Assembly: GCF_039535475.1 (NCBI RefSeq)
Contig: NZ_BAAAXG010000026.1
Location: 620,001-684,000 of the forward strand
Length of the DNA: 64,000 bases
Reading direction: 5' to 3'
DNA from: Streptomyces showdoensis
GTDB taxonomy: Bacteria > Actinomycetota > Actinomycetes > Streptomycetales > Streptomycetaceae
Part shown: positions 33,929-59,276 of the stretch, in pieces
Numbering within the stretch: position 1 is the first letter of the stretch
Layout: each line of letters opens with the position of its first letter
Made by a program: the position numbers and the translations under genes
The notes under the pieces: model-generated
Database searches by the model: none
Told to the model about the DNA's origin: nothing
The model's input: the letters and a program-made list of their open reading frames with translations, nothing else

Positions 33929-33940
33929 CTACGCGCGTAG
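33929..33940. promoter_or_regulatory. CTACGCGCGTAG operator, copy 1 (purine nucleoside phosphorylase)
   Basis: A perfect 12-bp palindrome 82 bp upstream of the PNP start codon. Identical copies precede deoC and add. TAGGGATTCT and CGGCTAGGCTGC just downstream look like -10 elements, so a bound repressor would block the promoter. Confidence 0.8.
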
Positions 33941-34021
33941 GGATTCTCCGGCTAGGCTGCTGCGCGTATCAAATCCGTCCGGGGCTCCCCTCGGACCCCC
34001 CTCCCCGAGGCGAGAGAGTCA

Positions 34022-34825
34022 GTGAACGCAACTGCCACCCCGTACGAGGCCGCCGAGGCCGCTGCCACGCGCCTTCGCGAGCTGACCGGAGTCGAGAACC
34101 ACGACGTCGCCCTGGTCATGGGCTCCGGCTGGGCACCGGCCGTCGACGCCCTGGGCGCCCCCGAGGCCGAGTTCCCGGTCACCGAGCTGCCCGGCTTCCC
34201 GCCGCCGGCCGTCGAGGGCCACGGCGGCAAGGTCCGCTCGTACAAGATCGGCGAGAAGCGCGCCCTGGTCTTCCTCGGCCGCACCCACTTCTACGAGGGC
34301 CGGGGCGTCGCCTCCGTCGCCCACGGTGTCCGCACCGCCGTCGCCGCCGGCTGCAAGACGGTCATCCTCACCAACGGCTGCGGCGGCCTGCGCGAGGGCA
34401 TGCGCCCCGGCCAGCCGGTGCTGATCAGCGACCACCTGAACCTGACGGCCGCCTCCCCGATCGTCGGCGCCAACTTCGTCGACCTCACCGACCTGTACTC
34501 GCCGCGCCTGCGCGCGCTGTGCAAGGAGGTCGACGAGACGCTGGAGGAGGGCGTCTACGTCCAGTTCCCCGGCCCGCACTACGAGACCCCGGCCGAGATC
34601 AACATGGTCCGCGTCATGGGCGGCGACCTGGTCGGCATGTCCACCGTCCTGGAGGCCATCGCGGCCCGCGAGGCCGGCGCCGAGGTCCTGGGCATCTCCC
34701 TCGTCACCAACCTGGCCGCGGGCCTGTCGGGCGAGCCGCTGAACCACGAGGAGGTCCTCCAGGCGGGCCGCGACTCGGCCGCCCGCATGGGCGAGCTGCT
34801 CACGCGGGTCCTGGACCGGATCTGA
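34022..34825 (+). CDS. Purine nucleoside phosphorylase
   Basis: Cleaves purine (deoxy)nucleosides with phosphate into base plus (deoxy)ribose-1-phosphate. The 267-residue trimeric-type PNP shows [11 protein letters not shown] (phosphate serine loop), [22 protein letters not shown], and the base-binding [14 protein letters not shown]. Start GTG 34022 follows GAGAGAGTCA closely. The palindrome CTACGCGCGTAG at 33929 marks it as part of a nucleoside-catabolism regulon with deoC and add. The phosphomutase gene follows after 87 bp on the same strand and would convert its sugar product. Confidence 0.95.
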
Positions 34826-34912
34826 TTCCTCCCCCCGTTCGGGAAGGGGCGGCGCGGGGAAGGAAACCGCCCGCCCCTCCGCACCGCCGCACTCCCCGAA
34901 AGGCACACCACC

Positions 34913-36568
34913 GTGACGACGCAGGACGACCTCCTCGCCCGGGCCCAGGCGTGGCTCGCCGAGGACCCCGACCCGGAGACCCGCGAGGAACTCGGCGCGC
35001 TCCTGGACCGCGGTGCCGTCGACGAGCTCGCCGAGCGCTTCGCCGGCACGCTGCAGTTCGGCACCGCCGGCCTCCGCGGCGAGCTGGGCGCCGGCCCGAT
35101 GCGGATGAACCGCGCCGTGGTCATCCGCGCCGCCGCCGGCCTCGCCGCGTACCTCAAGGCCAAGGGGCAGAGCGGCGGCCTGGTCGTCATCGGCTACGAC
35201 GCCCGCTACAAGTCGGCCGACTTCGCCCGCGACACCGCCGCCGTGATGACCGGCGCCGGGCTGCGCGCCGCGCTCCTGCCGCGCCCGCTGCCGACGCCCG
35301 TCCTCGCGTACGCGATAAGGCATCTGGGCGCCGTCGCGGGTGTCGAGGTGACCGCGAGCCACAACCCGCCGCGCGACAACGGCTACAAGGTGTACCTGGG
35401 CGACGGCTCGCAGATCACGCCGCCCGCCGACGTGGAGATCGCCGCCGAGATCGACGCGGTGCGCGCGCTGGCCGACGTGCCCCGCCCGGAGGACGGCTGG
35501 GAGACCCTCGGCGACGAGGTCCTGGAGGCGTACCTGGCGCGAACCGACGCCGTGCTGACCCCCGGCTCCCCCCGCACCGTGCGGACCGTCTACACGGCCA
35601 TGCACGGCGTCGGCAAGGACGTCCTGACGGCGGCCTTCGGCCGGCACGGCTTCCCGCCGCCGGCGCTGGTCGCCGAGCAGGCGGAGCCGGACCCGGCGTT
35701 CCCGACGGTCGCGTTCCCGAACCCGGAGGAGCCGGGTGCCATGGACCTCGCCTTCGAGGCGGCCCGGGCCGTGGACCCCGACATCGTGATCGCCAACGAC
35801 CCGGACGCCGACCGCTGCGCGGTGGCCGTGCCGGACGCGTCCGTCGAGGGCGGCTGGCGGATGCTGCGCGGCGACGAGGTCGGCGCGCTGCTCGCGGCCC
35901 ACCTGGTGCACAAGGGCGCCCGGGGCGTGTTCGCCGAGTCGATCGTGTCCTCCTCGCTGCTCGGCCGGATCGCCGAGGCGGCGGGCGTCGGCTACGAGGA
36001 GACGCTGACCGGCTTCAAGTGGATCGCCCGCGTCGAGGGCCTGCGGTACGGCTACGAGGAGGCGCTGGGCTACTGCGTCGACCCGGAGGGCGTGCGCGAC
36101 AAGGACGGCATCACGGCGGCGCTGCTCGTCGCCGAGCTGGCCTCGGTGCTCAAGGAGCAGGACCGCACCCTGAGCGACCTGCTGGACGACCTCGCGGTGG
36201 CCCACGGGCTGCACGCCACGGACCAGCTGTCGGTGCGCGTGGAGGACCTGAGCGTCATCGCCGACGCCATGGCGGCGCTGCGCGCGAAGCCGCCGGTGCG
36301 CCTCGCGGGCCTGACGGTCGTCTCGGCCGAGGACCTGACGAAGGGCACGGAGTCGCTGCCGCCGACCGACGGCCTGCGCTACCACCTGGAGGGCGACTAC
36401 AAGGCCCGGGTGATCGTCCGCCCGTCCGGCACCGAGCCGAAGATCAAGTGCTACCTGGAGGTCGTGGTCCCGGTCGCCGACGCGAGCGAGCTGGCGACGG
36501 CCCGCGCGACCGGCGCCGACGTGCTGGCCGCGATCAAGAAGGACCTGGCGGAGGCCGCCGGCCTGTAG
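34913..36568 (+). CDS. Phospho-sugar mutase (phosphopentomutase/phosphoglucomutase type)
   Basis: A 551-residue alpha-D-phosphohexomutase family enzyme. The phosphoserine is S149 in VTASHNPPRDNGYK, the Mg loop is NDPDADRCAV, the sugar loop is ETLTGFKWI, and the phosphate-binding end is RPSGTEPKIKCYLEV. In nucleoside catabolism it would convert (deoxy)ribose-1-phosphate to the 5-phosphate between PNP and DeoC. Its position right after PNP supports that, although glucose or mannose phosphate could also be substrates. GTG 34913 start. A strong terminator follows at 36586. Confidence 0.93.
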   Translation: MTTQDDLLARAQAWLAEDPDPETREELGALLDRGAVDELAERFAGTLQFGTAGLRGELGAGPMRMNRAVVIRAAAGLAAYLKAKGQSGGLVVIGYDARYKSADFARDTAAVMTGAGLRAALLPRPLPTPVLAYAIRHLGAVAGVEVTASHNPPRDNGYKVYLGDGSQITPPADVEIAAEIDAVRALADVPRPEDGWETLGDEVLEAYLARTDAVLTPGSPRTVRTVYTAMHGVGKDVLTAAFGRHGFPPPALVAEQAEPDPAFPTVAFPNPEEPGAMDLAFEAARAVDPDIVIANDPDADRCAVAVPDASVEGGWRMLRGDEVGALLAAHLVHKGARGVFAESIVSSSLLGRIAEAAGVGYEETLTGFKWIARVEGLRYGYEEALGYCVDPEGVRDKDGITAALLVAELASVLKEQDRTLSDLLDDLAVAHGLHATDQLSVRVEDLSVIADAMAALRAKPPVRLAGLTVVSAEDLTKGTESLPPTDGLRYHLEGDYKARVIVRPSGTEPKIKCYLEVVVPVADASELATARATGADVLAAIKKDLAEAAGL

Positions 36569-36585
36569 CGGCGGCCATGGCCGAG

Positions 36586-36623
36586 GGAGGGCCCGTACGG
36601 AATCGTTTCCGTACGGGCCCTCC
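36586..36623. terminator. Hairpin terminator after the phosphomutase gene
   Basis: A perfect 17-bp stem (36586-36602 with 36607-36623) with loop TCGT, ending the PNP-phosphomutase unit. Confidence 0.88.
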
Positions 36624-36739
36624 GGCGTTCCCCGGGGGCTCCCGACGACTCCCCTTCCGGGTGAACCGGGTACGGCAGGTGACCTAAGGCGCGCCCCGCG
36701 TCCGGGCGGCCGGGGCGGGGCCGGAGCAAGGGTGACCCG

Positions 36740-37936: not shown

Positions 37937-38098
37937 GAGACCCCTGTGGGCCCCTGCCGGTCCGCGGATGCCTCTGTCACAGAACTGTGACGAACAGGGA
38001 CGAGCTTGTGACGATCGATTCGGGGTTCGAACAGAGGAGGAGGTTTTAACCTCGGGAGGTTGACACGTGAACCACTAGTGACTCTGAGGGGGGACACG

Positions 38099-41000
38099 TT
38101 GCGTGACACACGATCGGGCGGGACTCTGAAGGCCGCCCGCGGCAGACGCATGACCGCGACCGCGGTCGCCATGACGGCGGCCCTCGCCTCGCTCGCACCG
38201 CTCGCCGGGGGGACGGCGGTCGCGGCGGAGGCACCCACGGCACAGGCACAGGCCCAGGCACCGCTGACGATCGCGCCCGAGCACTTCCCGAGTCCGGGCA
38301 AGCTGCAATTCGCCGGGGCGACCGGCTTCCTGCACGAGGACTCCCGCGGCTTCTCCTGGGTGCCGTACGCGGGCGGGAAGACCACCCGGTTCGCCCCCGA
38401 CCGCTCGTACGCGCTGTACGGCGGCGGCGGTGACGTCATCGCGCGCCAGTACCACGGCAGGGTCGTCCTCCAGGACGGGCCCACCGGCCCCGAGCGGACG
38501 GTGACGATCCCGCAGCGGCAGTACTTCGCGAGCGTCCAGGGCGGCAAGGTCATCACCAACGGCGAGGACAAGGTCGTCCACATCCTGTCGGTCGAGAACG
38601 GCGTCCAGAAGGACGTGAAGGTGCTCTCCCCGGCCGGATCGGCCTGGATCTCCACGATTTCACGGCACTCCGGCCGGCAGGGCGACGGGCAGGGCTTCTT
38701 CGTCGCCTACTCGCTGAACGGCAAGACGCTCCTCGGCTGGGTCGCCTTCGCCGATCCGGTCGTCAAGCCCACCGCGATCCCGTTCGACATCGCCGACTAC
38801 GCCCCCGACGTCTCCGGGACCCGCGCCTTCAGCTGGGACCGGAGGACCAAGCAGCTCAAGGTCTGGGACCTGACCGGCGACCTCACCCGGCCCACGGCGG
38901 AGATCCCGGTGTCCGAGGGGCACCCGGTGGCGCTGGTGGGCCAGGACGTCCTGGTGGTGACGAAGGTCGGGCAGGGCGACGTCCCGTACGTGCTGTACCC
39001 GCTGGCGGGCGGGGCGCCCCGGCCGGCCTTCGACGCGGCCGACGTCGTCCCCACCGCCGACGGCGGCGTCCTCGCCACGGCCACGGGCGCGGACGGGCAG
39101 CCCGCCGTCCACAAGGTCACCGTCCCCGGGCCCGGCTCGGCGCCGGTCCTCACCAAGCTCTACGACACCCCGGACACGGTCGCCCAGACCCGGCGGCTCG
39201 CCGTCGCCCAGGGCGAGCTGCACGCGGCGGAGCACCAGGGCCTGGACGACATGTACGGCCGGGTGACCAGCCGGAAGGTCACCGTCGCCGGCGAGCTCTC
39301 CGCGGGCCCGAAGACCGACCGGGGGTACGAGCACGAGACCGCCATCCCCGGCAGCTGCCTCCCGGGGTGCGTGCCCGTGAAGCCCACCGGCGACGGGCGG
39401 CTGGTCTTCCAGGCGTACCCGGGCAGCCTGTACGTGGTCAACCCGGGCGGCGGCCTGGACGACCGCAACTGGACCGGTGCCGAGCCCGAGAAGTACGGCG
39501 AGGACTTCCTGCTCTCGGGCCGCTACGTGTCGTACATCGCGCGCGTCAGCTCGGGCCGGGCCGTCACCCGCGAGGTCCTCGACCTCGACAGCCGCACGGT
39601 CGTGTTCCGCCGCGACCTCGGCGCCCGGCAGACCTCGCTCGACGGCGGCACCCTGTGGACCGAATCCACCGCCACCGGCACCGTCGACGCGGTCGACGTC
39701 CGCACGGGCACGACGAGGCGCACGGTGAAGCTGGCCGGCTGCGACCTCACCGGGCTCCAGGTCGTGGGCTCCTTCGCGTACTGGAAGTGCACGTCGAGCA
39801 CGGGCGTGAAGAACCTCGACACCCTCGCGAACGTCTCCCTGCCCGCGCACACCAACGCGCTGCTCGGCGACGGCTACCTCGCCCACGAGAAGGGCGGCAC
39901 GGTCTCCGTCACCCCGCTGCGCGGCGGCGGCGCGACCCGTGCGGTGGGGCCCGTGGCCGACTCCCGGCCGGACTACGGCTGGACGGTCGACCGCTTCGGC
40001 GGCCACGTGAGCCTCGTGGACGCGGACCAGAACATCCACGTCGTGCCCACCGGTGTCCCCGCCTCGCCGCTGCGTCTCCTCGACGCCGAGGAAAAGAAGA
40101 TCCTCGACCGCAAGGCGGCGAAGCCGGCGTGGGCCGCGAAGTGGTGGCTGAACAAGCCCGCCGCCTCCTGGCGGATGGACGTCCGCGACAGCGCGGGCAC
40201 CGTCGTGCGCACCCTTGAGGGCGGCGAGGCCCGCGGCCTGGTGAAGCCCGACTGGGACGGGAAGGACGCGGCCGGGAACGCACTGCCGGACGGGCTGTAC
40301 GACTGGACCCTGACGGCCGCCCCGGCGGACGGCGTGGGCCCCGCGCTCACCCGGACCGGCGACGTGGCGCTGGTGCGCGGGCAGTCCACGCTGGCCACCG
40401 GGCGGTACGAGCCGGTGACGCCGACGCGCGTGATGGACACTCGCTCCGGCGTCGGTGTCGCCAAGGCGAAGATCGGCGCCGGCAAGACGGTCACCCTGAC
40501 GGTCGCGGGCCGGGGCGGGGTGCCCGCGAAGGGCGTCTCGGCCGTGGTCCTGAACGTGACGGCGACCCATGCGACGGCGTCGACGTTCGTGTCGGCGTAC
40601 CCGTACGGGACGACCCGCACCAGCGCGTCGAACCTCAACGTGGTCGCCGGCCGGACCGTCCCGAACCTCGTCGTGGTCCCGGTCAGGGACGGCAAGGTCA
40701 CCTTCTACAACCGCAACGGCAGCGTCGACCTCATCGCCGACGTCGCCGGGTACTACTCGCTGTCGGGCAAGGGCTCGCTGTACGAGCCGGTGACGCCGAA
40801 CCGGCTGATGGACACGCGCTCCGGCATCGGCGTGCCGAAGGCCAAGCTCGGCGCCGACAGGACGGTCTCCCTGACGGTCGCGGGCCAGGGCGGCGTCCCC
40901 GCCACGGGCGTCACGGCCGTCGTCCTCAACGTCACGGCCACGAACCCGACGGCGTCGACGTTCGTCTCGGCCTACCCGTACGGGACGACCCGCACCAGCG

Positions 41001-41515
41001 CGTCGAACCTCAACGTGGTCGCGGGCCAGACGGTCCCGAACCTCGTCGTGGTCCCGGTCAGGGACGGCAAGGTCACCTTCTACAACCGCAACGGCAGCGT
41101 CGACCTCATCGCCGACGTCGCCGGGTACTACACCAGCGGCACCACGGGCTCCCTCTACGAGCCGGTGACCCCGGCCCGCCTGATGGACACCCGTAACGGC
41201 ACCGGCGTCACCAAGGCGAAGGTCGGCGCGGGCCAGACGGTCACCCTGACCGTCGCGGACAGGGGCGGCGTCCCGGCCGAGGGCGTCACCGCCGTGGTCC
41301 TCAACGTGACCGCGACGAACCCGACGGCGGCGACCTTCGTCTCCGTCTACCCGTACGGCACCACCCGCACCAGCGCCTCCAACCTCAACGTCGTCGCGGG
41401 CCAGACGATCCCCAACCTGGTCGTCGTCCCCGTCAAGGACGGCAAGGTCACCTTCTACAACCGCAACGGCAGCGTCGACCTCATCGCCGACGTCGCCGGG
41501 TACTACGGCCCCTGA
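38099..41515 (+). CDS. Large secreted repeat protein A with FlgD-Ig domain and three 125-residue repeats
   Basis: A 1138-residue exported protein. TTG 38099 is preferred because AGGGGGGA sits five bases upstream; the paralogue at 41708 has the same TTG layout. The signal peptide ends near GGTAVAA. Residues ~60-680 are beta-rich with propeller-like repeats (KLQFAGATGFL..FSWVPY). Next comes a FlgD-type Ig domain (WDGKDAAGNALPDGLYDWTL). Three repeats then start YEPVTP.R.MDTRSG and end VDLIADVAGYY, with an exact 375-nt period. There is no membrane anchor or sorting signal, so it is probably secreted. Function unknown; an adhesive or wall-binding role is only a guess. Confidence 0.85.
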   Translation: MRDTRSGGTLKAARGRRMTATAVAMTAALASLAPLAGGTAVAAEAPTAQAQAQAPLTIAPEHFPSPGKLQFAGATGFLHEDSRGFSWVPYAGGKTTRFAPDRSYALYGGGGDVIARQYHGRVVLQDGPTGPERTVTIPQRQYFASVQGGKVITNGEDKVVHILSVENGVQKDVKVLSPAGSAWISTISRHSGRQGDGQGFFVAYSLNGKTLLGWVAFADPVVKPTAIPFDIADYAPDVSGTRAFSWDRRTKQLKVWDLTGDLTRPTAEIPVSEGHPVALVGQDVLVVTKVGQGDVPYVLYPLAGGAPRPAFDAADVVPTADGGVLATATGADGQPAVHKVTVPGPGSAPVLTKLYDTPDTVAQTRRLAVAQGELHAAEHQGLDDMYGRVTSRKVTVAGELSAGPKTDRGYEHETAIPGSCLPGCVPVKPTGDGRLVFQAYPGSLYVVNPGGGLDDRNWTGAEPEKYGEDFLLSGRYVSYIARVSSGRAVTREVLDLDSRTVVFRRDLGARQTSLDGGTLWTESTATGTVDAVDVRTGTTRRTVKLAGCDLTGLQVVGSFAYWKCTSSTGVKNLDTLANVSLPAHTNALLGDGYLAHEKGGTVSVTPLRGGGATRAVGPVADSRPDYGWTVDRFGGHVSLVDADQNIHVVPTGVPASPLRLLDAEEKKILDRKAAKPAWAAKWWLNKPAASWRMDVRDSAGTVVRTLEGGEARGLVKPDWDGKDAAGNALPDGLYDWTLTAAPADGVGPALTRTGDVALVRGQSTLATGRYEPVTPTRVMDTRSGVGVAKAKIGAGKTVTLTVAGRGGVPAKGVSAVVLNVTATHATASTFVSAYPYGTTRTSASNLNVVAGRTVPNLVVVPVRDGKVTFYNRNGSVDLIADVAGYYSLSGKGSLYEPVTPNRLMDTRSGIGVPKAKLGADRTVSLTVAGQGGVPATGVTAVVLNVTATNPTASTFVSAYPYGTTRTSASNLNVVAGQTVPNLVVVPVRDGKVTFYNRNGSVDLIADVAGYYTSGTTGSLYEPVTPARLMDTRNGTGVTKAKVGAGQTVTLTVADRGGVPAEGVTAVVLNVTATNPTAATFVSVYPYGTTRTSASNLNVVAGQTIPNLVVVPVKDGKVTFYNRNGSVDLIADVAGYYGP
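40406..41515 (+). repeat. Three 375-bp coding repeats in protein A
   Basis: Units begin at 40406, 40781 and 41156, each at the codon for Tyr in YEPVTP. The first two are exactly 375 bp and the last is 360 bp to the stop. Long stretches such as AACCTCAACGTGGTCGC are identical between units, which indicates recent duplication or gene conversion. Confidence 0.9.
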
Positions 41516-41581: not shown

Positions 41582-41707
41582 TCGTTCGAACCTGAACCAC
41601 TGTTACTGTCGGGGCAGTTGCGGCAGGTGGGGGTGCGGACCGGGGGGGTCCACCAGCGGAACGCCACCACCTCCCACACACGTACTCATACGGGGAGGGA
41701 CCCTTCT

Positions 41708-44700
41708 TTGCGACAGATACGAACGCGCCGCCGTGCGCGTCTGACGGCGGCCGCCGTCGCGCTCACGGCGGCGCTGGCCACGGTGTCGCCACTCGGCGCG
41801 GGCACGGCGGTCGCGGCACCGTCGGCCCCGGCGGAACTGGTGATCCCGTCCGAGCGCAACGCGACACCGGACGCCGGACGTCTGCAACTGGCCGGTGCCA
41901 CCGGCTTCCTCAGGGGTGACGGCGGGACGGGGCTCAAGTGGGTCCCGTACAACGGCGGAACGGTCGGCTCGTACAAGATCTCCGACGGGGAGCGGCTCTT
42001 CGGCACCGGACGCGACCTGATCGCCCGGCTGAGCGCCGCGCGGGACAGGGTCGACTTCACCGACCCCTACGGCGGGACCACGGCGACCGTCGCCATCCCC
42101 GCGGGCCACAGGTTCGCGGCGGTCTCGGGGACCGAGGTCATCACCGAGGAGTACGAGGACGGCGCGGTCGTCGCCGTACACGCCCTGACCGTCGTGGACG
42201 GGGTGGCCAAGGACCGTACGGTCTGGGGATTCCGGCCCGGCACCACCGACATCTCGGTGGCGGGCGGGGACAACCCGAAGGGCTTCTTCGTCTCCTACAC
42301 GCTCGACGGACAGAAGCGGACGGCCTGGGTGCGGACCGCGTCGCTCGGCATGTGGGCGCCGGAGAACGCGCGGAGCGTGAGCGCGGCGGGCGACTACCTC
42401 TTCGTCGTCACCCAGGAGCAGCGGCTCCAGATCTGGAGCGCCGACCTCTTCGGGGGCCAGACCCCCTTCCACGAGATGGACTGGCCTGAGGGCCTGGAGC
42501 CGGTCGGCATGGTCGGCAGCAACGTGATCACCCGTTCGGCCGACGGGCCCGACGGGGCCACGCTGACGGCGTACCACGTCAGCGGAGGGCTGGGACGCGT
42601 CGTCCTCTCCCAGGTGCGCGGTGACCTCCGGCTCACCCCGGACGGGCGCCTGCTGGCCGTCAAGTTCGGCGCCGAGAACATCCGCACCGTCCAGGCACTG
42701 CGGAACGACATCAACGGCGGCGCGCTCCGCGTCGACACGGTCCACCAGATCCCGCTCGTCCCCACCGCCCGCCAGCGCATCGCGGTCGCCCAGGGCGAGG
42801 TGAGCACCGTGGACCGGATCCCGTGGGAGGCACCCCGCCTGCGGAGCACCCGGCTCACCCTCGGCGACCCGGTCCTGGCCGACCAGGCGCAGGACCGGGG
42901 CACCGGCCCCGACTTCGGACGCCAGTGCGCGGACGAGCCCGACTGCCCCGTGCTCGTGCCGACGGGCGACGGACGGGTCGTCTACCGGAACTCCCGCCAG
43001 GCCCTGGTCCTCCTCGACGCCGGCAAGCAGCTGCCCGGCACCACCGTCGTCGACGGGGGCGTCGTCGGCGACGTCGAGGCCTCGGGCCGGTACGTCTCCT
43101 TCCGCTCCCTCGACGGCACGCAGAAGGTCCTGGACCTCGACGCCCGCACGGTCGTCTTCGACCGCGGCGGCCTCGCCGGACGGGCGACCGCGCTGGACGG
43201 CGGCACCCTCTGGTCGGAGAGCACGACCGCCGGCACCGTCGACGCCCTCGACGTCCGCACCGGCGCGGTCCTGCGCTCGGAGAAGGTCGCCGACTGCTCC
43301 CTGACGGACCTTCAGGTACGGGGCGGCTCCGCGTACTGGAAGTGCGACACCGCCTCCGGCGTCACCGACCTGAACACGAAGACCACCCGCACCCTGCCCG
43401 GCCATGACGCCGCGCTCCTCGGGGACGGCTACGTGGCCCACGCCGCCAAGGACGGCACCCTGTCGCTGACCCCGCTCCGGGGCGGCGACACGGCGACCCG
43501 GACCGTCGGCCGGCCGGCCGACATCCGGCCCGGCTTCGGCTGGGCGGTGGACCGCTTCGGCGGCCATCTGGCCTGGGTCGACGAGCTCCAGCGCACCCAC
43601 GTGACGCCGAGCGGCGTCTCGACGGCGGACTTCTCCGTCCTCGACTCCGAGCGGCCCACCGCCCTCCTGGACCGCAAGGCGGCCACGCCTCAGAAGTGGT
43701 CGGGGAAGTGGTGGTTCTCCAACCCGCTGCGCCGCTGGAGCATCACGTTCGTGAGCGACTCGGGCGCCCACCAGCGCACCCTGCAGGGGTGGAGCCAGGT
43801 CCGGGGCGCGCTCGAGGTGAACTGGGACGGCACGGACTCGGCCGGGCAGCCGATGGCCGACGGCCTGTACCGCTGGACCCTGACCGCCGAGCCCGAGGTC
43901 GAGTTCGGCATGGCGACTTACACGTACGGGGAGGTGGCGCTGACCCGCCTGACCTCGCTCGCCTCGGGCCGCTACCAGCCCGTGGCTCCGGCCCGGGTGA
44001 TGGACACCCGCTCCGGCATCGGCGTGCCCAAGGCGAAGGTCGGCCCGGGCGGGACGGTCACGCTCCAGGTCGCCGGACGCGGCGGGGTCCCCGAGTCGAG
44101 CGCCGTCTCGGCCGTGGTCCTGAACGTCACCGCGACGAACCCGACGGCGGCGACCTTCGTCTCCGTCTACCCGTACGGCACCACCCGCACCAGCGCCTCC
44201 AACCTCAACGTGGTCGCGGGGCAGACCGTCCCGAACCTCGTCGTCGTCCCCGTCAAGGACGGCAAGGTCACCTTCTACAACCGCGGCGGCAGCATCGACC
44301 TCCTCGCCGACGTCGCCGGGTACTACTGGCCGGCGTCGACGGGCTCGCTGTACGAGCCGGTGACGCCGACGCGTCTCATGGACACCCGCTCCGGCACCGG
44401 CGTCCCCAAGGCCAGGCTCGGCGCCGACCAGACCGTCTCGCTGACGGTCGCGGGCAAGGGCGGGGTCCCGGCCACGGGCGTCACCGCCGTCGTCCTCAAC
44501 GTCACCGCGACGAACCCGACGGCGACGACGTTCGTCTCCGTCTACCCGTACGGCACCACCCGCACCAGCGCCTCCAACCTCAACGTGGTCGCCGGACAGA
44601 CCGTCCCGAACCTCGTCGTCGTCCCCGTCAAGGACGGCAAGGTCACCTTCTACAACCGCGGCGGCTCGCTCGACCTGCTCGCGGACGTCGCCGGGTACTT

Positions 44701-45085
44701 CACCGACGGGAGCTCCGGTTCGCTGTACGAGCCGGTGACGCCCACCCGCCTGATGGACACCCGCTCCGGCACCGGCGTCCCCAAGGCCAAGCTCGGCGCC
44801 GACCAGACCGTCTCGCTGACGGTCGCGGGCAAGGGCGGGGTCCCGGCCACGGGCGTCACCGCCGTCGTCCTCAACGTCACCGCCACGAACCCCACGACGG
44901 CGACGTTCGTCTCCGTCTACCCGTACGGCACCACCCGCACCAGCGCCTCCAACCTCAACGTGGTCGCCGGACAGACCGTCCCGAACCTCGTCGTCGTCCC
45001 CGTCAAGGACGGCAAGGTCACCTTCTACAACCGCGGCGGCAGCATCGACCTCCTCGCCGACGTCGCCGGGTACTACAGCCCCTGA
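41708..45085 (+). CDS. Large secreted repeat protein B, paralogue of A
   Basis: A 1125-residue exported protein, paralogous along its whole length to the preceding gene. TTG 41708 follows GGGGAGGGA at a good distance. The signal peptide ends near AGTAVAAPSA. The beta-rich region begins RLQLAGATGFL, then GLKWVPYNGG. The FlgD-like Ig domain holds NWDGTDSAGQPMADGLYRWTL. Three C-terminal repeats start at 43973, 44351 and 44726. Its own terminator separates it from A, so the two are tandem copies rather than a tight operon. No anchor is visible. Confidence 0.85.
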   Translation: MRQIRTRRRARLTAAAVALTAALATVSPLGAGTAVAAPSAPAELVIPSERNATPDAGRLQLAGATGFLRGDGGTGLKWVPYNGGTVGSYKISDGERLFGTGRDLIARLSAARDRVDFTDPYGGTTATVAIPAGHRFAAVSGTEVITEEYEDGAVVAVHALTVVDGVAKDRTVWGFRPGTTDISVAGGDNPKGFFVSYTLDGQKRTAWVRTASLGMWAPENARSVSAAGDYLFVVTQEQRLQIWSADLFGGQTPFHEMDWPEGLEPVGMVGSNVITRSADGPDGATLTAYHVSGGLGRVVLSQVRGDLRLTPDGRLLAVKFGAENIRTVQALRNDINGGALRVDTVHQIPLVPTARQRIAVAQGEVSTVDRIPWEAPRLRSTRLTLGDPVLADQAQDRGTGPDFGRQCADEPDCPVLVPTGDGRVVYRNSRQALVLLDAGKQLPGTTVVDGGVVGDVEASGRYVSFRSLDGTQKVLDLDARTVVFDRGGLAGRATALDGGTLWSESTTAGTVDALDVRTGAVLRSEKVADCSLTDLQVRGGSAYWKCDTASGVTDLNTKTTRTLPGHDAALLGDGYVAHAAKDGTLSLTPLRGGDTATRTVGRPADIRPGFGWAVDRFGGHLAWVDELQRTHVTPSGVSTADFSVLDSERPTALLDRKAATPQKWSGKWWFSNPLRRWSITFVSDSGAHQRTLQGWSQVRGALEVNWDGTDSAGQPMADGLYRWTLTAEPEVEFGMATYTYGEVALTRLTSLASGRYQPVAPARVMDTRSGIGVPKAKVGPGGTVTLQVAGRGGVPESSAVSAVVLNVTATNPTAATFVSVYPYGTTRTSASNLNVVAGQTVPNLVVVPVKDGKVTFYNRGGSIDLLADVAGYYWPASTGSLYEPVTPTRLMDTRSGTGVPKARLGADQTVSLTVAGKGGVPATGVTAVVLNVTATNPTATTFVSVYPYGTTRTSASNLNVVAGQTVPNLVVVPVKDGKVTFYNRGGSLDLLADVAGYFTDGSSGSLYEPVTPTRLMDTRSGTGVPKAKLGADQTVSLTVAGKGGVPATGVTAVVLNVTATNPTTATFVSVYPYGTTRTSASNLNVVAGQTVPNLVVVPVKDGKVTFYNRGGSIDLLADVAGYYSP
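43973..45085 (+). repeat. Three ~375-bp coding repeats in protein B
   Basis: Units start at 43973, 44351 and 44726 (378, 375 and 360 bp). The first has one extra codon in GVPESSAVSAV. Units 2 and 3 are almost identical at DNA level (GTCCCCAAGGCC, GACCAGACCGTCTCGCTGAC and many longer matches), so they were copied recently. Confidence 0.9.
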
Positions 45086-47770: not shown

Positions 47771-48028
47771 CACGACTCCCGTGAAGTCAGAAAGGTCGGG
47801 TGTGGAAGAGCCGCATGCCGCTGACGTCTCGTTCGGTGGAGGCCGGTGAGTTCTGGCTGGCTGCGGAGGAAACGTTATGGATCTTGGGTTCTGGACGCGT
47901 CCGCTCCGTGTCACGGGCATGTGACAGAGCTCACCGGCCCCGCCTCCTCCCGCACCCACCTGCGCTTTCGCACGCTCGTCCGAGCGGCCCCCTGTACAGG
48001 CCGCTACGCGCGTAGATATGCTCGACTG
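47771..48028. other. Divergent promoter region, surface protein / deoC
   Basis: A 258-bp gap without a gene. The left half serves the surface-protein gene and includes CCGGTGAGTTCTGGCTGGC and GGAAACGTTATGGATC, the most A/T-rich part. The right end has the CTACGCGCGTAG palindrome right before deoC. Confidence 0.6.
48004..48015. promoter_or_regulatory. CTACGCGCGTAG operator, copy 2 (deoC)
   Basis: A perfect 12-bp palindrome ending 13 bp before the GTG start of deoC. It overlaps TAGATATGCT, the likely -10 element, which implies a very short leader and direct promoter blocking by a repressor. Confidence 0.8.
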
Positions 48029-48994
48029 GTGACCATGCCCACCACTGCAACCGCAGCACACGCTTTCGCCGACGTGACCGCGTCCGACAGCACGCTGCGC
48101 CGCTTCCTCCACGGGCTGCCCGGCGTCGACGCCGTCGGCCTGGAGGCGCGCGCCGCGTCCCTCGGTACCCGCTCGATCAAGACCACGGCCAAGGCATACG
48201 CCATCGACCTGGCCATCTCCATGATCGACCTGACGACGCTCGAAGGCGCGGACACCCCGGGCAAGGTCCGGGCGCTCGCCGCCAAGGCCGTCAACCCCGA
48301 TCCGACCGACCGCACCACGCCGACCACCGCGGCCGTCTGCGTCTACCCCGACATGGTGGCCACCGCCAAGGCCGCCGTGAAGGGCTCCGACGTCAAGGTC
48401 GCCTCGGTCGCCACCGCCTTCCCGGCCGGGCGCGCCGCGCTGCCGGTGAAGCTGGCCGACACCGCCGACGCGATCGCCGCCGGCGCCGACGAGATCGACA
48501 TGGTCATCGACCGTGGCGCCTTCCTCGCCGGCCGCTACCTGGAGGTGTTCGAGCAGATCGCCGCCGTCAAGGCCGAGTGCGGCGACCGCGCGCGCCTCAA
48601 GGTGATCTTCGAGACGGGCGAGCTGTCCACGTACGACAACATCCGCCGCGCCTCCTGGCTCGGCATGATGGCCGGCGCGGACTTCATCAAGACCTCGACC
48701 GGCAAGGTCGCGGTCAACGCCACCCCCGCCAACACCCTCCTGATGCTGGAGGCCGTGCGCGACTTCCGCGCCCAGACCGGCGTCCAGATCGGCGTGAAGC
48801 CCGCGGGCGGCATCCGCAACACCAAGGAAGCCGTCAAGTTCCTGGTCCTGGTCAACGAGACCGTCGGCGAGGACTGGCTGGATAACCACTGGTTCCGCTT
48901 CGGTGCCTCCAGCCTGCTCAACGACCTGCTGATGCAGCGTCAGAAGCTGGCGACCGGCCGTTACTCCGGCCCCGATTACGTGACGGTGGACTGA
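48029..48994 (+). CDS. deoC: Deoxyribose-phosphate aldolase
   Basis: Class I aldolase splitting 2-deoxyribose-5-phosphate into glyceraldehyde-3-phosphate and acetaldehyde. The 321 residues include the Schiff-base lysine K221 in DFIKTSTGK, the second active-site lysine in IGVKPAGGIR, and MIDLTTLEG and EIDMVIDRGAFL strands. The start is GTG 48029 or ATG 48035. An N-terminal extension of about 40 residues is typical of actinobacterial DeoC. It leads an operon with two aldehyde dehydrogenases that can remove its acetaldehyde, and it carries the nucleoside operator in its promoter. Confidence 0.95.
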   Translation: MTMPTTATAAHAFADVTASDSTLRRFLHGLPGVDAVGLEARAASLGTRSIKTTAKAYAIDLAISMIDLTTLEGADTPGKVRALAAKAVNPDPTDRTTPTTAAVCVYPDMVATAKAAVKGSDVKVASVATAFPAGRAALPVKLADTADAIAAGADEIDMVIDRGAFLAGRYLEVFEQIAAVKAECGDRARLKVIFETGELSTYDNIRRASWLGMMAGADFIKTSTGKVAVNATPANTLLMLEAVRDFRAQTGVQIGVKPAGGIRNTKEAVKFLVLVNETVGEDWLDNHWFRFGASSLLNDLLMQRQKLATGRYSGPDYVTVD

Positions 48995-48999
48995 TCAAC

Positions 49000-50436
49000 A
49001 TGGCATCTGCATTCGAGTACGCGCCGGCGCCCGAGTCCCGGTCCGTCGTCGACATCGCGCCCTCCTACGGGCTGTTCATCGACGGCGAGTTCGTCGACGC
49101 GGCCGACGGCAAGGTCTTCAAGACCGTCTCCCCGTCCACCGAGGAGGTCCTGTCCGAGATCGCCCAGGCGGGCGCCGAGGACGTGGACCGCGCGGTCAAG
49201 GCCGCCCGGAAGGCCTTCGAGAAGTGGTCGGCGCTGCCCGGCTCCGAGCGCGCCAAGTACCTCTTCCGGATCGCCCGGATCATCCAGGAGCGCAGCCGCG
49301 AGCTGGCCGTCCTGGAGACCCTGGACAACGGCAAGCCGATCAAGGAGACCCGCGACGCGGACCTCCCGCTGGTCGCCGCGCACTTCTTCTACTACGCGGG
49401 CTGGGCCGACAAGCTGGACCACGCGGGCTACGGCGCGGACCCGCGCCCGCTGGGCGTGGCCGGCCAGGTCATCCCGTGGAACTTCCCGCTGCTCATGCTG
49501 GCGTGGAAGATCGCCCCGGCCCTCGCGACCGGCAACACGGTCGTCCTGAAGCCGGCCGAGACGACCCCGCTCTCCGCGCTGTTCTTCGCGGACATCTGCC
49601 GCCAGGCCGGCCTGCCCAAGGGCGTCGTCAACATCCTTCCCGGTTACGGCGACACGGGCGCGGCCCTGGTCGAGCACCCGGACGTGAACAAGGTCGCCTT
49701 CACCGGCTCGACCGCGGTCGGCCGGGCCATCGCCAAGTCGGTGGCCGGCACCGACAAGAAGCTCACCCTGGAGCTGGGCGGCAAGGGCGCCAACATCGTC
49801 TTCGACGACGCCCCGATCGACCAGGCCGTCGAGGGCATCGTCAACGGCATCTTCTTCAACCAGGGCCAGGTCTGCTGCGCGGGCTCCCGCCTGCTGGTCC
49901 AGGAGTCGATCCACGACGAGCTGCTGGACTCCCTCAAGCGCCGCCTCGGCACCCTGCGGCTGGGCGACCCGCTCGACAAGAACACCGACATCGGCGCGAT
50001 CAACTCCGAGGAGCAGCTGGCCCGGATCACCTCGCTCGTCGAGCAGGGCGTGGCGGAGGGCGCCGAGCGCTGGTCGGCCGCCTGCGAGATCCCCTCGGCC
50101 GGCTACTGGTTCGCCCCGACGCTCTTCACCGGCGTCACCCAGGCGCACACCGTGGCCCGCGACGAGATCTTCGGCCCGGTCCTGTCGGTGCTCACCTTCC
50201 GTACGCCCGACGAGGCCGTCGCCAAGGCCAACAACAGCCAGTACGGCCTGTCGGCGGGCATCTGGACGGAGAAGGGCTCGCGGATCCTCGCCGTCGCCAA
50301 CAAGCTCCGGGCCGGGGTCGTCTGGGCCAACACGTTCAACAAGTTCGACCCGACCTCGCCCTTCGGCGGCTACAAGGAGTCGGGCTTCGGCCGCGAGGGC
50401 GGCCGCCACGGTCTGGAGGCCTACCTCGATGTCTGA
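49000..50436 (+). CDS. Aldehyde dehydrogenase (NAD(P)-dependent)
   Basis: A 478-residue ALDH superfamily enzyme oxidising aldehydes to acids. It has the PWNFPLLM Rossmann start, the cofactor loop FTGSTAVGR, catalytic base E258 in LELGGKGANIV, and the nucleophile C292 in NQGQVCCAGSR. The end is FGGYKESGFGREGGRHGLEAY. It begins five bases after the deoC stop, so it is surely co-transcribed. The likely substrate in this context is acetaldehyde released by DeoC, an inference from gene order. Its last eight bases overlap the next gene. Confidence 0.94.
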   Translation: MASAFEYAPAPESRSVVDIAPSYGLFIDGEFVDAADGKVFKTVSPSTEEVLSEIAQAGAEDVDRAVKAARKAFEKWSALPGSERAKYLFRIARIIQERSRELAVLETLDNGKPIKETRDADLPLVAAHFFYYAGWADKLDHAGYGADPRPLGVAGQVIPWNFPLLMLAWKIAPALATGNTVVLKPAETTPLSALFFADICRQAGLPKGVVNILPGYGDTGAALVEHPDVNKVAFTGSTAVGRAIAKSVAGTDKKLTLELGGKGANIVFDDAPIDQAVEGIVNGIFFNQGQVCCAGSRLLVQESIHDELLDSLKRRLGTLRLGDPLDKNTDIGAINSEEQLARITSLVEQGVAEGAERWSAACEIPSAGYWFAPTLFTGVTQAHTVARDEIFGPVLSVLTFRTPDEAVAKANNSQYGLSAGIWTEKGSRILAVANKLRAGVVWANTFNKFDPTSPFGGYKESGFGREGGRHGLEAYLDV

Positions 50437-51319
50437 CGCGACCCGTCTTGGCGTCTTCAAGACCTACAAGCTGTACGTGGGCGGGAAGTTCCCGCGTTCC
50501 GAGAGCGGCCGGGTGTACGAGGTGACCGACTCCAAGGGCAACTGGCTGGCCAACGCGCCCCTCTCGTCCCGCAAGGACGCCCGTGACGCGGTCGTCGCCG
50601 CGCGCAAGGCCTTCGGCGGCTGGGCGGGCGCGACCGCCTACAACCGCGGTCAGATCCTCTACCGCGTCGCCGAGATGCTGGAGGGCCGCCGCGACCAGTT
50701 CGTGCGCGAGGTCGGCGAGGCCGAGGGCCTGTCCAAGTCGAAGGCCGCCGCCGTCGTGGACGCCGCCGTCGACCGCTGGGTCTGGTACGCGGGCTGGACC
50801 GACAAGATCGCCCAGGTCGTCGGCGGGGCCAACCCGGTGGCGGGCCCGTACTTCAACCTGTCGACCCCGGAGCCCACCGGTGTCGTCACCGTGATCGCCC
50901 CGCAGGACTCGTCCTTCCTGGGCCTGGTCTCGGTGATCGCCCCGGTCATCGCGACCGGCAACACGGCGGTCGTCGTCACCAGCGAGAAGGCCCCGCTCCC
51001 GGCGCTGTCCCTGGGCGAGGTGCTGGCCACCTCCGACCTGCCCGGCGGCGTGGTCAACCTGCTCTCCGGCAAGGCCTCCGAGATGGGCCCGCACCTGGCG
51101 GCCCACCAGGACGTCAACGCGATCGACCTGACCGGCGCGGACGCCGACCTGGCGCGCGAGCTGGAGATCGCGGCGGCGGACAACCTGAAGCGCGTCCTGC
51201 GCCCGCGCGCCGAGGACTTCACCGCGTCCCCGGGCACGGACCGCATGACCGCGTTCCTGGAGACGAAGACCGTCTGGCACCCCACGGGTTCGCTGGGCGC
51301 GAGCGGCTCCGCCTACTAG
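50429..51319 (+). CDS. Short aldehyde dehydrogenase-like protein lacking the catalytic half
   Basis: A 296-residue ALDH-like protein, coupled to the full ALDH by an 8-base overlap. It begins KTYKLYVGGKFPRSESGRVY and follows the coenzyme-binding domain (TGVVTVIAPQ, ATGNTAVVVTSEKAPL, LPGGVVNLLSGKASEM). There is no ELGGK base motif, no active-site Cys and no C-terminal domain. The frame ends naturally with a terminator after it, so it is not a sequencing cut. From memory the same short gene sits here in other Streptomyces, which argues for a structural or regulatory partner rather than decay. Confidence 0.88.
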   Translation: MSDATRLGVFKTYKLYVGGKFPRSESGRVYEVTDSKGNWLANAPLSSRKDARDAVVAARKAFGGWAGATAYNRGQILYRVAEMLEGRRDQFVREVGEAEGLSKSKAAAVVDAAVDRWVWYAGWTDKIAQVVGGANPVAGPYFNLSTPEPTGVVTVIAPQDSSFLGLVSVIAPVIATGNTAVVVTSEKAPLPALSLGEVLATSDLPGGVVNLLSGKASEMGPHLAAHQDVNAIDLTGADADLARELEIAAADNLKRVLRPRAEDFTASPGTDRMTAFLETKTVWHPTGSLGASGSAY

Positions 51320-53528: not shown

Positions 53529-53598
53529 AGGCGGGGGGTCGCACGGCGTCCCGACCGGACGGTCGAACTCCGACGGCCGGATGGGACAGAATGAGGCC

Positions 53599-56470: not shown

Positions 56471-56560
56471 ACCGGCTTCCTCATGCCGTCCCGGCGCGCC
56501 CCTGACCTCGGTCTCCGGGGCGGCGGAACCGATTCCGGCGGGGCGCGCGTCTTGGGGGTC

Positions 56561-57127
56561 GTGCAGCGTCAAGGTTCGGGTGATTCCGGCGGTTCGGGCG
56601 GCAGTGCCGCCATGGTCGTGCGCGTGGCGGGGTTCGTCCTCCTCCTCGCCCATCTGCTGCTGGTCGCCTGGGTGGCGCTCCGCCCGCGCGACGTGGCCTG
56701 GGTGACCGCGCCGAACCTGACCCCGCTGGCCGGGATCAGGGGCGATCTGGCGCTCGGCGCGGCCGAGGCGGCCCGGCGGATCGCCGGGGGGCTGCTGCTC
56801 CTCGCCCCGCTCGGGGTGCTGCTGCCGATGGCCGACGGGCGGCTCTCCGTCTCGCCGTGGGCGTCGCTGGCCCGTACGACGGCGGCGGGGGCGCTGTTGT
56901 CGGTGACGATCGAGATGCTGCAGACGGCGGTGCCGGGGCAGGTCGTGGACGTGGACTCGGTGCTGCTGAACACCGCGGGCGTGGCCCTCGCCCATCTGTT
57001 GGTGGTGCCGGCCGGGCGGGCGCGGCTGCGCCGCAGGTCGGGGGTGGGGTCCTCCTCGGGGAGGAGACGGGGGCGTTCCCCGCAGGGGGTGACCCCGACG
57101 ATTCCCAGGGTCGGGATCGCCCCGTAG
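56561..57127 (+). CDS. VanZ-family membrane protein
   Basis: A 188-residue membrane protein with four or five helices. MVVRVAGFVLLLAHLLLVAW is first; ILL-rich AGGLLLLAPLGVLLPM comes next. The family segment is LSVTIEMLQTAVPGQVVDVDSVLLNTAG, in which the E-x-Q...R/V-D-x-D-x-x-x-N pattern is the VanZ signature. A basic tail follows. GTG 56561 is preferred over the 214-residue frame because the preceding part is non-conserved. VanZ proteins are linked with glycopeptide tolerance, but the molecular role is unknown. Downstream of the AfsQ operon by 90 bp. Confidence 0.87.
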   Translation: MQRQGSGDSGGSGGSAAMVVRVAGFVLLLAHLLLVAWVALRPRDVAWVTAPNLTPLAGIRGDLALGAAEAARRIAGGLLLLAPLGVLLPMADGRLSVSPWASLARTTAAGALLSVTIEMLQTAVPGQVVDVDSVLLNTAGVALAHLLVVPAGRARLRRRSGVGSSSGRRRGRSPQGVTPTIPRVGIAP

Positions 57128-57218
57128 ACCGACGCTTTGTCCCGGGGGCCCGGGCGAGGATGGAGTCACATCGGGGGCCCGACGAAGCGGCCTCCGCGAG
57201 ACTCCGAAGGAGCCCACC

Positions 57219-57419
57219 ATGGCCGCACTTGCCCGCCCCCGTGACGGACGCATGATCGGTGGAGTGTGCGCGGCGCTGGCACGGCGCTTCGGCATCTCCG
57301 CGGGGACGATGCGACTGATCTTCCTGGTGTCGTGTCTGCTGCCCGGCCCGCAGTTCCTGCTCTACCTGGCGCTGTGGGTGCTGCTGCCGGCGGAGAAGGC
57401 GCCGAGCACGGCCTGGTAG
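57219..57419 (+). CDS. PspC-domain small membrane protein
   Basis: A 66-residue PspC-type protein. The family pattern RPRDGRMIGGVCAALARRFG leads into ISAGTMRLIFLVSCLLPG and a single membrane helix (QFLLYLALWVLLPAE). PspC proteins sense or answer envelope stress, and short single-domain forms are common in Streptomyces. ATG 57219 follows a good AAGGAG. It is bounded by a very strong terminator, so it is probably monocistronic. No PspA or PspB gene is in the window. Confidence 0.92.
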   Translation: MAALARPRDGRMIGGVCAALARRFGISAGTMRLIFLVSCLLPGPQFLLYLALWVLLPAEKAPSTAW

Positions 57420-57439
57420 CCGGTCCGTCTTCCGTACGC

Positions 57440-57486
57440 ACGCCCGAGGGCGCCCCTCCCGGTCCGGGAGGGGCGCCCTCGGGCGT
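57440..57486. terminator. Very long perfect hairpin terminator
   Basis: Two perfectly matched 23-bp arms (57440-57462 and 57464-57486) with a nominal 1-nt loop. It lies between the PspC gene and the convergent secreted-protein gene and is the longest perfect stem noted in the window. Confidence 0.88.
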
Positions 57487-57508
57487 CTGGTGCGGGAGCG
57501 CGGGTGCG

Positions 57509-57955
57509 TCAGACCGGCAGGCCGAGGCCGCCGGTGGGCAGGCCGCCGGTGGGCAGACCGCCGGTGAGGCCGCCGACCGGGAGGCCGCCGAGGAGGCCGG
57601 TGAGCTGACCGGCCGGGGTGTGGGCGAGGCCGTTCTGCACGCCGTCCATCGGGACCTTGGTGGCCTGCTCGGTGACCGGCGGGAGGGCCTTGGTCGCCTG
57701 GTCGGTGATCTGCGGGAGCGTCCCGATGCCCTGCTCGGCGCCGAGGTTGAGGGCGCCCTGGCCGGCCCCGAGGGTCTCGGCGACGCCGGAGGGGAGGTCG
57801 GTCACGTCTTCGCCGAGCGGCACGATGCTGGTGACCGTGCCGAGCGCGTCGGGGCCGAGCGGCAGCGCGGTGGCGGAGGCCGTGCCGGCGGCGGCAGCGG
57901 CGAAAGCGGCACCGAGAGCGGCGACACCGAGCGTCTTGGCGGCAGACTGCTTCAT
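57509..57955 (-). CDS. Small secreted Leu/Gly/Pro-rich protein
   Basis: A 148-residue exported protein. The signal peptide MKQSAAKTLGVAALGAAFAA ends near TASATA. The mature part is rich in Leu, Gly, Thr and Pro and ends in short tandem repeats GGLPTGGLPTGGLGLPV. There are no cysteines. It resembles the 51417 protein in composition. ATG 57955 is chosen over the longer frame because it gives a canonical signal peptide. In Streptomyces such proteins are abundant and unassigned. A structural or surface role is possible but not shown. Confidence 0.8.
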   Translation of the reverse strand: MKQSAAKTLGVAALGAAFAAAAAGTASATALPLGPDALGTVTSIVPLGEDVTDLPSGVAETLGAGQGALNLGAEQGIGTLPQITDQATKALPPVTEQATKVPMDGVQNGLAHTPAGQLTGLLGGLPVGGLTGGLPTGGLPTGGLGLPV

Positions 57956-58093
57956 CAGAAAATCGTCCTCAGGAATCTCGGGGAATGCAGAGTGGCTACG
58001 CAAACTAATCATCGAAACCTCCGTCCGCAAATACCGAAATGCGGCCGGTCGCCGTGCGGCCGGCCGCATTCCGTGCCCCTTCCGAGAGGGAGT

Positions 58094-59248
58094 TCAGCTC
58101 GTCTGGCGGGAAGACTCGCTGGTCGTGGCCGTCTGCTGGAACAGCCATTCGGACTTCAGCTCGGCATATCCGGGCTTGATCACATCGTTGATCATCGCGA
58201 GGCGTTCATCGAAAGGAATGAACGCTGATTTCATCGCATTGACCGTGAACCACTGCATGTCGTCGAGCGTGTAGTCGAATGCCTCGACCAGGAATTCGAA
58301 TTCCCGGCTCATGCTGGTGCCGCTCATCAGCCGGTTGTCGGTGTTGACGGTGGCCCGGAAGTGCAGCTTGCGGAGCAGCCCGATGGGGTGCTCCTTGTAC
58401 GAGTCGGCGGCGCCGGTCTGCAGGTTGGAGGTGGGGCACATCTCCAGCGGGATGCGCTTGTCCCGCACGTACGCGGCGAGCCGGCCCAGGGTGACCGAGC
58501 CGTCGTCGGCGACCTCGATGTCGTCGATGATCCGCACCCCGTGGCCGAGCCGGTCGGCGCCGCACCACTGGAGGGCCTGCCAGATCGAGGGCAGGCCGAA
58601 GGCCTCGCCGGCGTGGATGGTGAAGTGGTTGTTCTCGCGCTTCAGGTACTCGAAGGCGTCGAGGTGGCGGGTGGGCGGGAAGCCCGCCTCGGCGCCCGCG
58701 ATGTCGAAGCCGACGACCCCGGTGTCGCGGTAGCGGTTGGCGAGTTCGGCGATCTCCAGGGCGCGGGCGGCGTGCCGCATCGCGGTGAGCAGGGCGCCGA
58801 CCCGGATGCGGTGGCCGTTCGCCCTGGCCTGGCGCTCGCCCTCGCGGAAGCCCTCGTTGACCGCCTCGACGACCTCTTCGAGGGTCAGGCCGCCCTCCAG
58901 GTGCTGTTCGGGGGCGTAGCGGACCTCGGCGTAGACGACGCCGTCCTCGGCCAGGTCGATCGCGCACTCGGCGGCGACCCGGAACAGGGCCTCGCGGGTC
59001 TGCATGACGGCGCAGGTGTGCGCGAAGGTCTCCAGGTAGCGCTCCAGGGAGCCGGAGTCGGCGGCCTCCCGGAACCAGACGCCGAGCTTGTCGGGCTCGG
59101 TCTCGGGAAGGTTCTCGTAGCCCTGGGCACGGGCGAGTTCGATGATCGTGCCGGGGCGCAGCCCACCGTCGAGGTGGTCGTGGAGGAGCACCTTCGGGGC
59201 ACGGCGGATCTGGTCCGCGGCGGGGGTGCTGGGGATCTGGCTCGTCAT
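58094..59248 (-). CDS. add: Adenosine deaminase
   Basis: Zinc enzyme converting (deoxy)adenosine to (deoxy)inosine, feeding PNP. The 384 residues include the metal-binding [11 protein letters not shown] (HxH), the [10 protein letters not shown] histidine and catalytic glutamate, RLGHGVRI, and CPTSNLQTG followed later by [12 protein letters not shown] with the zinc aspartate. Start ATG 59248. The palindrome CTACGCGCGTAG lies 17 bp upstream, the same element as in front of PNP and deoC. Convergent with the small secreted-protein gene only by distance; on the same strand it stands alone. Confidence 0.95.
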
Positions 59249-59264
59249 TTCGGCACTCTAGCGC

Positions 59265-59276
59265 CTACGCGCGTAG
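59265..59276. promoter_or_regulatory. CTACGCGCGTAG operator, copy 3 (add)
   Basis: A perfect 12-bp palindrome ending 17 bp upstream of the add start codon, in a 105-bp divergent gap. It is identical to the copies at 33929 and 48004. Its position so close to the start implies direct blocking of the add promoter. Confidence 0.8.

Follow-up and report, generated by a model that had tools for sequence, protein, structure and literature searches.

Introduction

In Escherichia coli, the DeoR/CytR system controls deoCABD, cdd, nup and udp. Here, we describe a 12-bp palindrome, CTACGCGCGTAG, that stands in front of the genes for purine nucleoside phosphorylase (pnp), deoxyribose-phosphate aldolase (deoC) and adenosine deaminase (add) in a 64-kb stretch of the Streptomyces showdoensis genome (contig NZ_BAAAXG010000026.1, positions 620,001 to 684,000; henceforth the window, with coordinates counted from its first base). 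An earlier inspection of this DNA without database searches, henceforth the sequence-only reading, had proposed the palindrome as the operator of a repressor of (deoxy)nucleoside breakdown. We find that CTACGCGCGTAG is an exceptionally conserved putative operator with DeoR/CytR-like logic. As in E. coli, one specific repressor system would cover nucleoside uptake, a deaminase, phosphorylases and deoxyribose-phosphate aldolase. By contrast, the operator differs from those of DeoR/CytR in sequence and length, single short sites lie in promoters of leaderless type, the proposed regulon includes predicted secreted nucleases and nucleotidases, and the systems are not orthologous as far as tested.

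Three further types of system invite comparison. In Streptomyces, the PHO (PhoP) regulon governs secreted phosphatases and other scavenging enzymes, and its PHO boxes are direct repeats of GTTCACC-type units. The theme of scavenging is common to both, but CTACGCGCGTAG is unrelated in sequence and also covers intracellular nucleoside catabolism. NupR of Bacillus thuringiensis (GntR/HutC) is likewise a dedicated regulator of nucleoside uptake; its abstract speaks mainly of nucleoside transport, whereas the regulon proposed here is wider. In the LacI family, passages of PMC4052901 describe the nucleoside regulators UriR, AdeR and HpxR and cover the effectors of CytR. Their sites and ours are even palindromes with a central CG over nucleoside genes; however, sites of this family are, according to the same passages, mostly 16-22 bp long and mostly located 140-30 bp before the start codon.

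Results

An exact search recovered CTACGCGCGTAG three times in the window, precisely where the sequence-only reading had placed it (Table 1), and found no further exact copy there. Dinucleotide-keeping shuffles give a chance expectation of 0.01 copies in the window, in line with the earlier estimate of well under one. The genome as a whole comprises 8,497,953 bases in 29 contigs and has the same three copies as its only ones, compared with 0 for the reversed control; each lies in a core promoter, namely that of pnp, deoC or add. Many copies inside genes, or absence of the site from orthologous genes, had been named beforehand as findings that would speak against an operator; instead, none of the copies in this genome is scattered inside genes, and the site is kept before orthologous pnp, deoC and add. 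When up to two mismatches are allowed, the window holds one extra match, giving a total of 4 against 4.41 expected, which is not above chance.

Conservation of the exact site is strict within the genus and extends through the family. All 150 of 150 genomes in a genus sample have exact copies (2-6 each; reversed control, 0-3), and at least one is present in 100 of 101 Streptomycetaceae genomes representing 16 of 17 genera; the sole exception, G445, has CTACTCGCGTAG directly before deoC. In a class sample of 296 genomes, copies are present in all 28 members of the genus and in 10 of the 268 other genomes, the latter with 12 copies in total. The contexts of these copies were read in seven of the ten, i.e. 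all except G253, G302 and G382 with one exact copy each, and none of those read is at genes of the nucleoside reference set. Based on the window shuffles, the genome count and the conservation in the genus, we reject a chance origin of the copies. As a separate observation, among genomes outside the family G233 alone has three exact copies (L067, L193 and L194), none of them at nucleoside reference-set genes; one is just upstream of genes that by eye resemble those of deazapurine/GTP metabolism.

The fetched loci comprise 117 distinct contexts with an exact copy, i.e. 38 at pnp, 27 at add, 21 at a nucleoside ATP-binding cassette (ABC) operon, 15 at deoC and 16 others. Four of the 27 add contexts belong to a second adenosine deaminase gene, where the site comes right after the ATG. 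Within the family, 101 of 110 contexts are at these target genes, the ABC operon being of the PnrA type, and seven of the 16 other contexts are from outside the family. The remaining nine family contexts include two metallophosphatase genes that diverge from a GNAT gene, one of them encoding a 5'-nucleotidase domain, an EEP/LTD nuclease and a purS gene, which has CTACGCGCGTAG 51 bp before it. In divergent genera, orthologous sites carry single-base variants (CTACGCGCATAG, CTATGCGCGTAG and ATACGCGCGTAG at pnp, CTACACGCGTAG at deoC). A 20-base pattern from the deoC promoter occurs in at least 120 stretches of named genomes; among the matches listed, all 80 titles are Streptomyces, with one title written '[Kitasatospora] papulosa'.

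The symmetry of the palindrome ends at 12 bp, and the bases at +/-1 are asymmetric and fixed per gene: T..G at pnp (38/38) and add (23/27), and G..A at deoC (15/15) and the second add (4/4). These flanks bear on whether the site could be a functionless bystander inherited within a conserved gene neighbourhood. While pnp, deoC, add, deoA and the ABC operon do share one conserved region, several adjacent columns of the pnp contexts are nearly devoid of information (0.04 and 0.02 bits at +4 and +6), yet the +/-1 bases are kept throughout (the 12-mer itself being the search criterion), and the core recurs at unlinked nuclease and nucleotidase genes. A bystander origin is scarcely credible to us.

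At all three genes, the site is within about 40 bp of a likely -10 element. Read on the sense strand, the arrangement is CTACGCGCGTAG-(12 nt)-TAGGCT at pnp, CTACGCGCGTAG-gcgc-TAGAGT-gccgaa-ATG at add and CTACGCGCGTAG-a-TATGCT-cgactg-GTG at deoC, i.e. the operator is upstream of the -10 by 12, 4 and 1 bp, respectively. The sequence-only reading had described each copy as on or next to the likely -10, which holds closely for deoC and add and, at the larger distance just given, for pnp. Its distance of 13 bp from the deoC copy to the start agrees with GTG 48029, while the 17 bp given for add is corrected to 16 bp; the gap to the pnp start used here is 81 bp. According to a passage of PMC7157823, transcription starts 7-8 bp downstream of a TANNNT -10. 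Because the -10 elements of deoC and add end 6 nt before the start codon, this rule suggests that both mRNAs are probably leaderless. At the spacings given, the operator would fall within the stretch covered by RNA polymerase, where a repressor site is expected, and the site positions relative to the -10 agree with repression. The pnp relatives compared have a leaderless-type GTG 25 bp past the operator and 7 nt after the -10, with the 12-nt operator-to--10 spacing kept. Against this background, the 81-bp gap in the window (33941-34021) looks like the insertion of a leader of ~57 bp in this lineage.

The proximity of the site to the -10 in the promoters examined might also be expected if it were a promoter element, e.g. 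for an alternative sigma factor, or a DNA-modification element. However, the side and distance vary, from the three spacings above to directly downstream of the -10 at a 5'-nucleotidase gene and within the first codons of the second add; pnp, deoC and add each have their own TANNNT-like -10; and three places in 8.5 Mb are too few for a modification motif. We regard this explanation as very improbable.

The 11-bp core of the site, TCTACGCGCGT, occurs at ten places in this genome (control, 1+1). Seven are at nucleoside or nucleic-acid genes: pnp, deoC, add, a Bmp lipoprotein (C26:693514), a 5'-nucleotidase, an EEP/LTD-type nuclease (62% identity to the G135 homologue over 451 aa) and a GmrSD_C/HNH-type protein, where it is inside the first codons. 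The three others lack such a link, one being within the gene of an AfsR-type regulator. Across 12 further family genomes from 10 genera, TCTACGCGCGT occurs at 133 places compared with 18 for the reversed control, and 76 of the 116 distinct contexts read were assigned to the nucleic-acid/nucleoside theme, some members by Pfam and the rest by BLAST to a checked member, with secretion judged from the N-terminus. For degradation, these are 5'-nucleotidases (9, plus 1 of a second type), EEP/LTD nucleases (9), PLD-type proteins (5), acid phosphatase B (4), GmrSD_C/HNH proteins (4) and guanyl-type ribonuclease domains (2). Transport and catabolism contribute Bmp/ABC genes (15), add (7), pnp and deoC (7), deoA (3) and purine/pyrimidine permeases (2), and the remainder are purS (4), purF (3) and a GH25 gene (1). 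The purS contexts are in four genera and the purF contexts in three genera other than that of the window, while one genus member (L084) has the full palindrome at purS. Full palindromes number 17 among the assigned contexts and 1 among the others. Of 30 loci of one 5'-nucleotidase, 26 have exact TCTACGCGCGT ahead of the gene, each of them with at least 69% identity, and a second unit follows 13-14 bp on in five and 32 bp on in one of the 26. In sum, one site stands before several unlinked units of one pathway, is rare elsewhere and is conserved at orthologues. The part of the original proposal that pnp, deoC and add share an operator stands, but nucleoside breakdown turns out to be too narrow a description of the regulon.

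Which protein reads the site? The sequence-only reading had pointed to the DeoR/GlpR-family gene in the neighbourhood (30502-31470). This protein is present in 101 of 101 family genomes (73-100% identity except for one split match in G504; next-best matches, ~45%), its gene is near pnp in all seven loci compared from divergent genera, and its recognition helix is identical in the 44 family loci compared. However, none of 44 distinct promoters of the gene has the site at up to two mismatches and only 3 have it at up to three, and 23 genomes outside the genus with DeoR orthologues (52-70% identity) contain one exact copy in total. Moreover, the outgroup orthologues share the recognition-helix core in the loci compared, yet four of their loci adjoin RbsA-type sugar transporters, and the orthologue promoters in three outgroup genomes have a palindrome resembling TGATCGG-N2-CCGATCA. 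Thus, the absence of the site from its own promoters and the single outgroup copy disfavor this protein, and it is unlikely to be the repressor that binds CTACGCGCGTAG. The DeoR promoter (upstream of 31470 and in relatives) has a strongly conserved element of its own, GAAYAAC-N4-GTTAWTC, found with at most one mismatch in 22 of 44 promoters.

The same reading had also noted a likeness to LacI-family sites, and the corresponding candidate is a CytR-like repressor. The central CG and even symmetry do fit, and nucleoside regulators of this type (CytR, UriR and AdeR) exist (passages of PMC4052901). By contrast, the 12-bp symmetry with asymmetric flanks (T..G, G..A and others) falls short of the LacI length range, and in deoC, add and many pnp genes the site is 13-25 bp from the start, nearer than is usual for LacI sites. 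Judged by the length and position of the site, a LacI-type reader is quite unlikely. A MarR-family gene divergent from a GH25 gene (C26:183571-184065) was rejected as the general reader: at E 1e-25, it is found in 80 of 101 family genomes and has no match in 21, as compared with 100 of 101 genomes for the operator. A LysR gene adjoins add here and in L175, L179 and L314; the 12-bp site is not LysR-like. A GntR/MFS pair with the site between the two genes was found in one genome only (L279). In the neighbourhoods looked over, no regulator gene shared by the second add, 5'-nucleotidase, purS/purF, permease, PLD and acid-phosphatase genes was seen. All in all, the reader is probably neither the DeoR-family protein nor a LacI-family protein.

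Discussion

Based on these data, we consider it very likely that CTACGCGCGTAG serves as the operator for a single transcription factor, most likely a repressor of genes with which external nucleic acids and nucleosides are used. In this model, a protein dimer bound to the core promoter or immediately beyond the start site would block RNA polymerase, and a nucleoside, nucleobase, pentose phosphate or related signal would release it. The strong palindromic form would act on pnp, deoC and add and, in many relatives, also on the nucleoside ABC operon. A half-degenerate form, in which the base after TCTACGCGCGT is mostly a pyrimidine or A and the next one a purine, would act on the genes for nucleases, 5'-nucleotidases and the nucleoside-binding lipoprotein as well as on purS and purF, the last two mostly outside the genus. 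Control would be graded, from extracellular digestion via uptake and phosphorolysis to pentose breakdown.

With less assurance, but on balance in favor, we suggest that this amounts to a hitherto unrecognised Streptomycetaceae-wide nucleic-acid-diet regulon, in which one factor would read both TCTACGCGCGT and the palindromic form. This regulon would comprise secreted nucleases, ribonuclease and nucleotidases, the import of nucleosides and bases, nucleoside breakdown and, chiefly in genera other than Streptomyces, de novo purine synthesis via the purS operon and purF.

Several observations weigh against the proposed repressor and its regulon. The flanks of the ABC-operon sites are looser than those at the other genes (n=21; G..A 12, G..C 6, A..A 2 and G..T 1). 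Forty of the 116 TCTACGCGCGT contexts were left unassigned, several of them within coding regions and some before peptidoglycan hydrolases or genes without a known role. The site with up to one mismatch occurs at 18 places in the genome as compared with 13 for the reversed control and is, thus, hardly above it. As a consequence, mismatched sites must rest on conservation and function; 7 of the 15 one-mismatch places have added support or a fitting function. Joint control of purine synthesis and nucleoside breakdown would be unusual, and the pnp site, which is near the -35, could serve an activator instead. Finally, no further candidate reader emerged beyond the DeoR-, LacI- and MarR-family proteins, no search aimed at LacI or TetR genes having been made.

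The papers found do not explain how streptomycetes, which digest and recycle nucleic acids, switch the genes needed jointly. If the model is correct, the factor would be a nucleoside/purine master regulator of these bacteria. Because the site is rare and strictly kept, the regulator should be findable in one pull-down, and the contexts listed here provide a ready set of targets, from nucleases to purine genes, as well as a compact operator for nucleoside-responsive promoters.

The DeoR homologue is, we presume, SCO4920. In passages of the literature, SCO4920 centres a predicted network module (PMC3224704) and appears in a table of carbon-responsive regulators (PMC4848846). An argR mutant shows under-representation of SCO4914, named there as deoxyribose-phosphate aldolase (PMC3293853). 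The SCO4914 promoter belongs to a set that WblC binds and that is repressed, described as having no distinctive feature (PMC7157823). Where two strains were compared, one had higher levels of the adenosine deaminase SCO4901 and of some putative nucleases (PMC7244524). The operator is reported in none of these passages, and non-exhaustive motif and topic searches, which covered few subscription journals, found no description of it or of such a regulator.

Additional features of the region

Table 1. Sites, predicted promoter elements and genes in the window (plain coordinates) and one-mismatch sites outside it (last six rows)
Feature	Position	Strand	Basis or remark
DeoR/GlpR-family regulator gene	30502..31470	-	candidate reader, not supported
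Putative operator CTACGCGCGTAG of pnp	33929..33940	.	exact search; +/-1 bases T..G in 38/38 pnp contexts
Likely -10 of pnp, TAGGCT	33953..33958	+	sequence; relatives with TANNNT 12 nt past operator, 7 nt before GTG
pnp, purine nucleoside phosphorylase	34022..34825	+	Pfam PNP_UDP_1; NCBIfam TIGR01698 above cut-off; GTG start 34022
Phosphohexo/pentomutase-family gene, 3' of pnp	34913..36568	+	Pfam PGM_PMM I-IV; no NCBIfam model above cut-off; possibly phosphopentomutase
Putative operator CTACGCGCGTAG of deoC	48004..48015	.	exact search; +/-1 bases G..A in 15/15 deoC contexts
Likely -10 of deoC, TATGCT	48017..48022	+	ends 6 nt before GTG 48029; spacing invariant in 14 deoC contexts compared
deoC, deoxyribose-phosphate aldolase	48029..48994	+	Pfam; TIGR00126 above cut-off; GTG 48029, ATG 48035 in frame
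Aldehyde dehydrogenase gene, 3' of deoC	49000..50436	+	Pfam Aldedh
Second aldehyde dehydrogenase-family gene	50429..51319	+	Pfam Aldedh
add, adenosine deaminase	58094..59248	-	Pfam A_deaminase; NF006847 above cut-off; ATG 59248
Likely -10 of add, TAGAGT	59255..59260	-	sequence; ends 6 nt before ATG 59248
Putative operator CTACGCGCGTAG of add	59265..59276	.	exact search; +/-1 bases T..G in 23/27 add contexts, other 4 = second add
One-mismatch site, deoA	C26:687705		just beyond window
One-mismatch site, PnrA-type ABC operon	C26:692273		just beyond window
One-mismatch sites, two 5'-nucleotidase-type genes	1343804, 3684075		
One-mismatch site, GmrSD_C/HNH-type protein	3293767		
One-mismatch site, nitrilase-type gene	C12:181712		
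One-mismatch site, GH25 muramidase	C26:184179		muramidase by eye; GH25 by Pfam in G441 homologue

Between the pnp-pgm pair and deoC, two adjacent large genes (38060-41515 and 41618-45085) encode proteins of 1151 and 1155 aa, each of which matches FlgD_ig and, weakly, DUF4330.

The nitrilase/CN-hydrolase gene (C12:181712; also L005, L228 and L198-L227) has a distinct element, CTACG(T/G)GCGTAG, in 26 of 30 loci, mostly inside CT...AG. It was kept apart from the regulon because the centre of the element is TG or GG and never CG in the 26 loci. An imperfect copy of the operator between the MarR-type gene and the GH25 muramidase gene (C26:184179 in L006; also L338 and L378-L407) matches with up to two mismatches in 19 of 30 loci, and this lytic enzyme may be co-regulated.

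Just past the window, the PnrA-like transporter (Pfam Bmp) includes an ABC ATPase and two permeases, and cdd and deoA come after it; its family and gene context suggest a role in nucleoside transport. All 16 of the distinct contexts that the pattern retrieves for the ATPase gene (L046 on C26, and relatives) read GGAG..TGCGCC-ATC-(A/G)ACGC, and 13 of 20 occurrences lack any ATG, GTG, TTG or CTG in frame after the preceding stop codon and before the ATC. Thus, the gene seems to start with ATC, and a conserved AUC start codon would be unusual.

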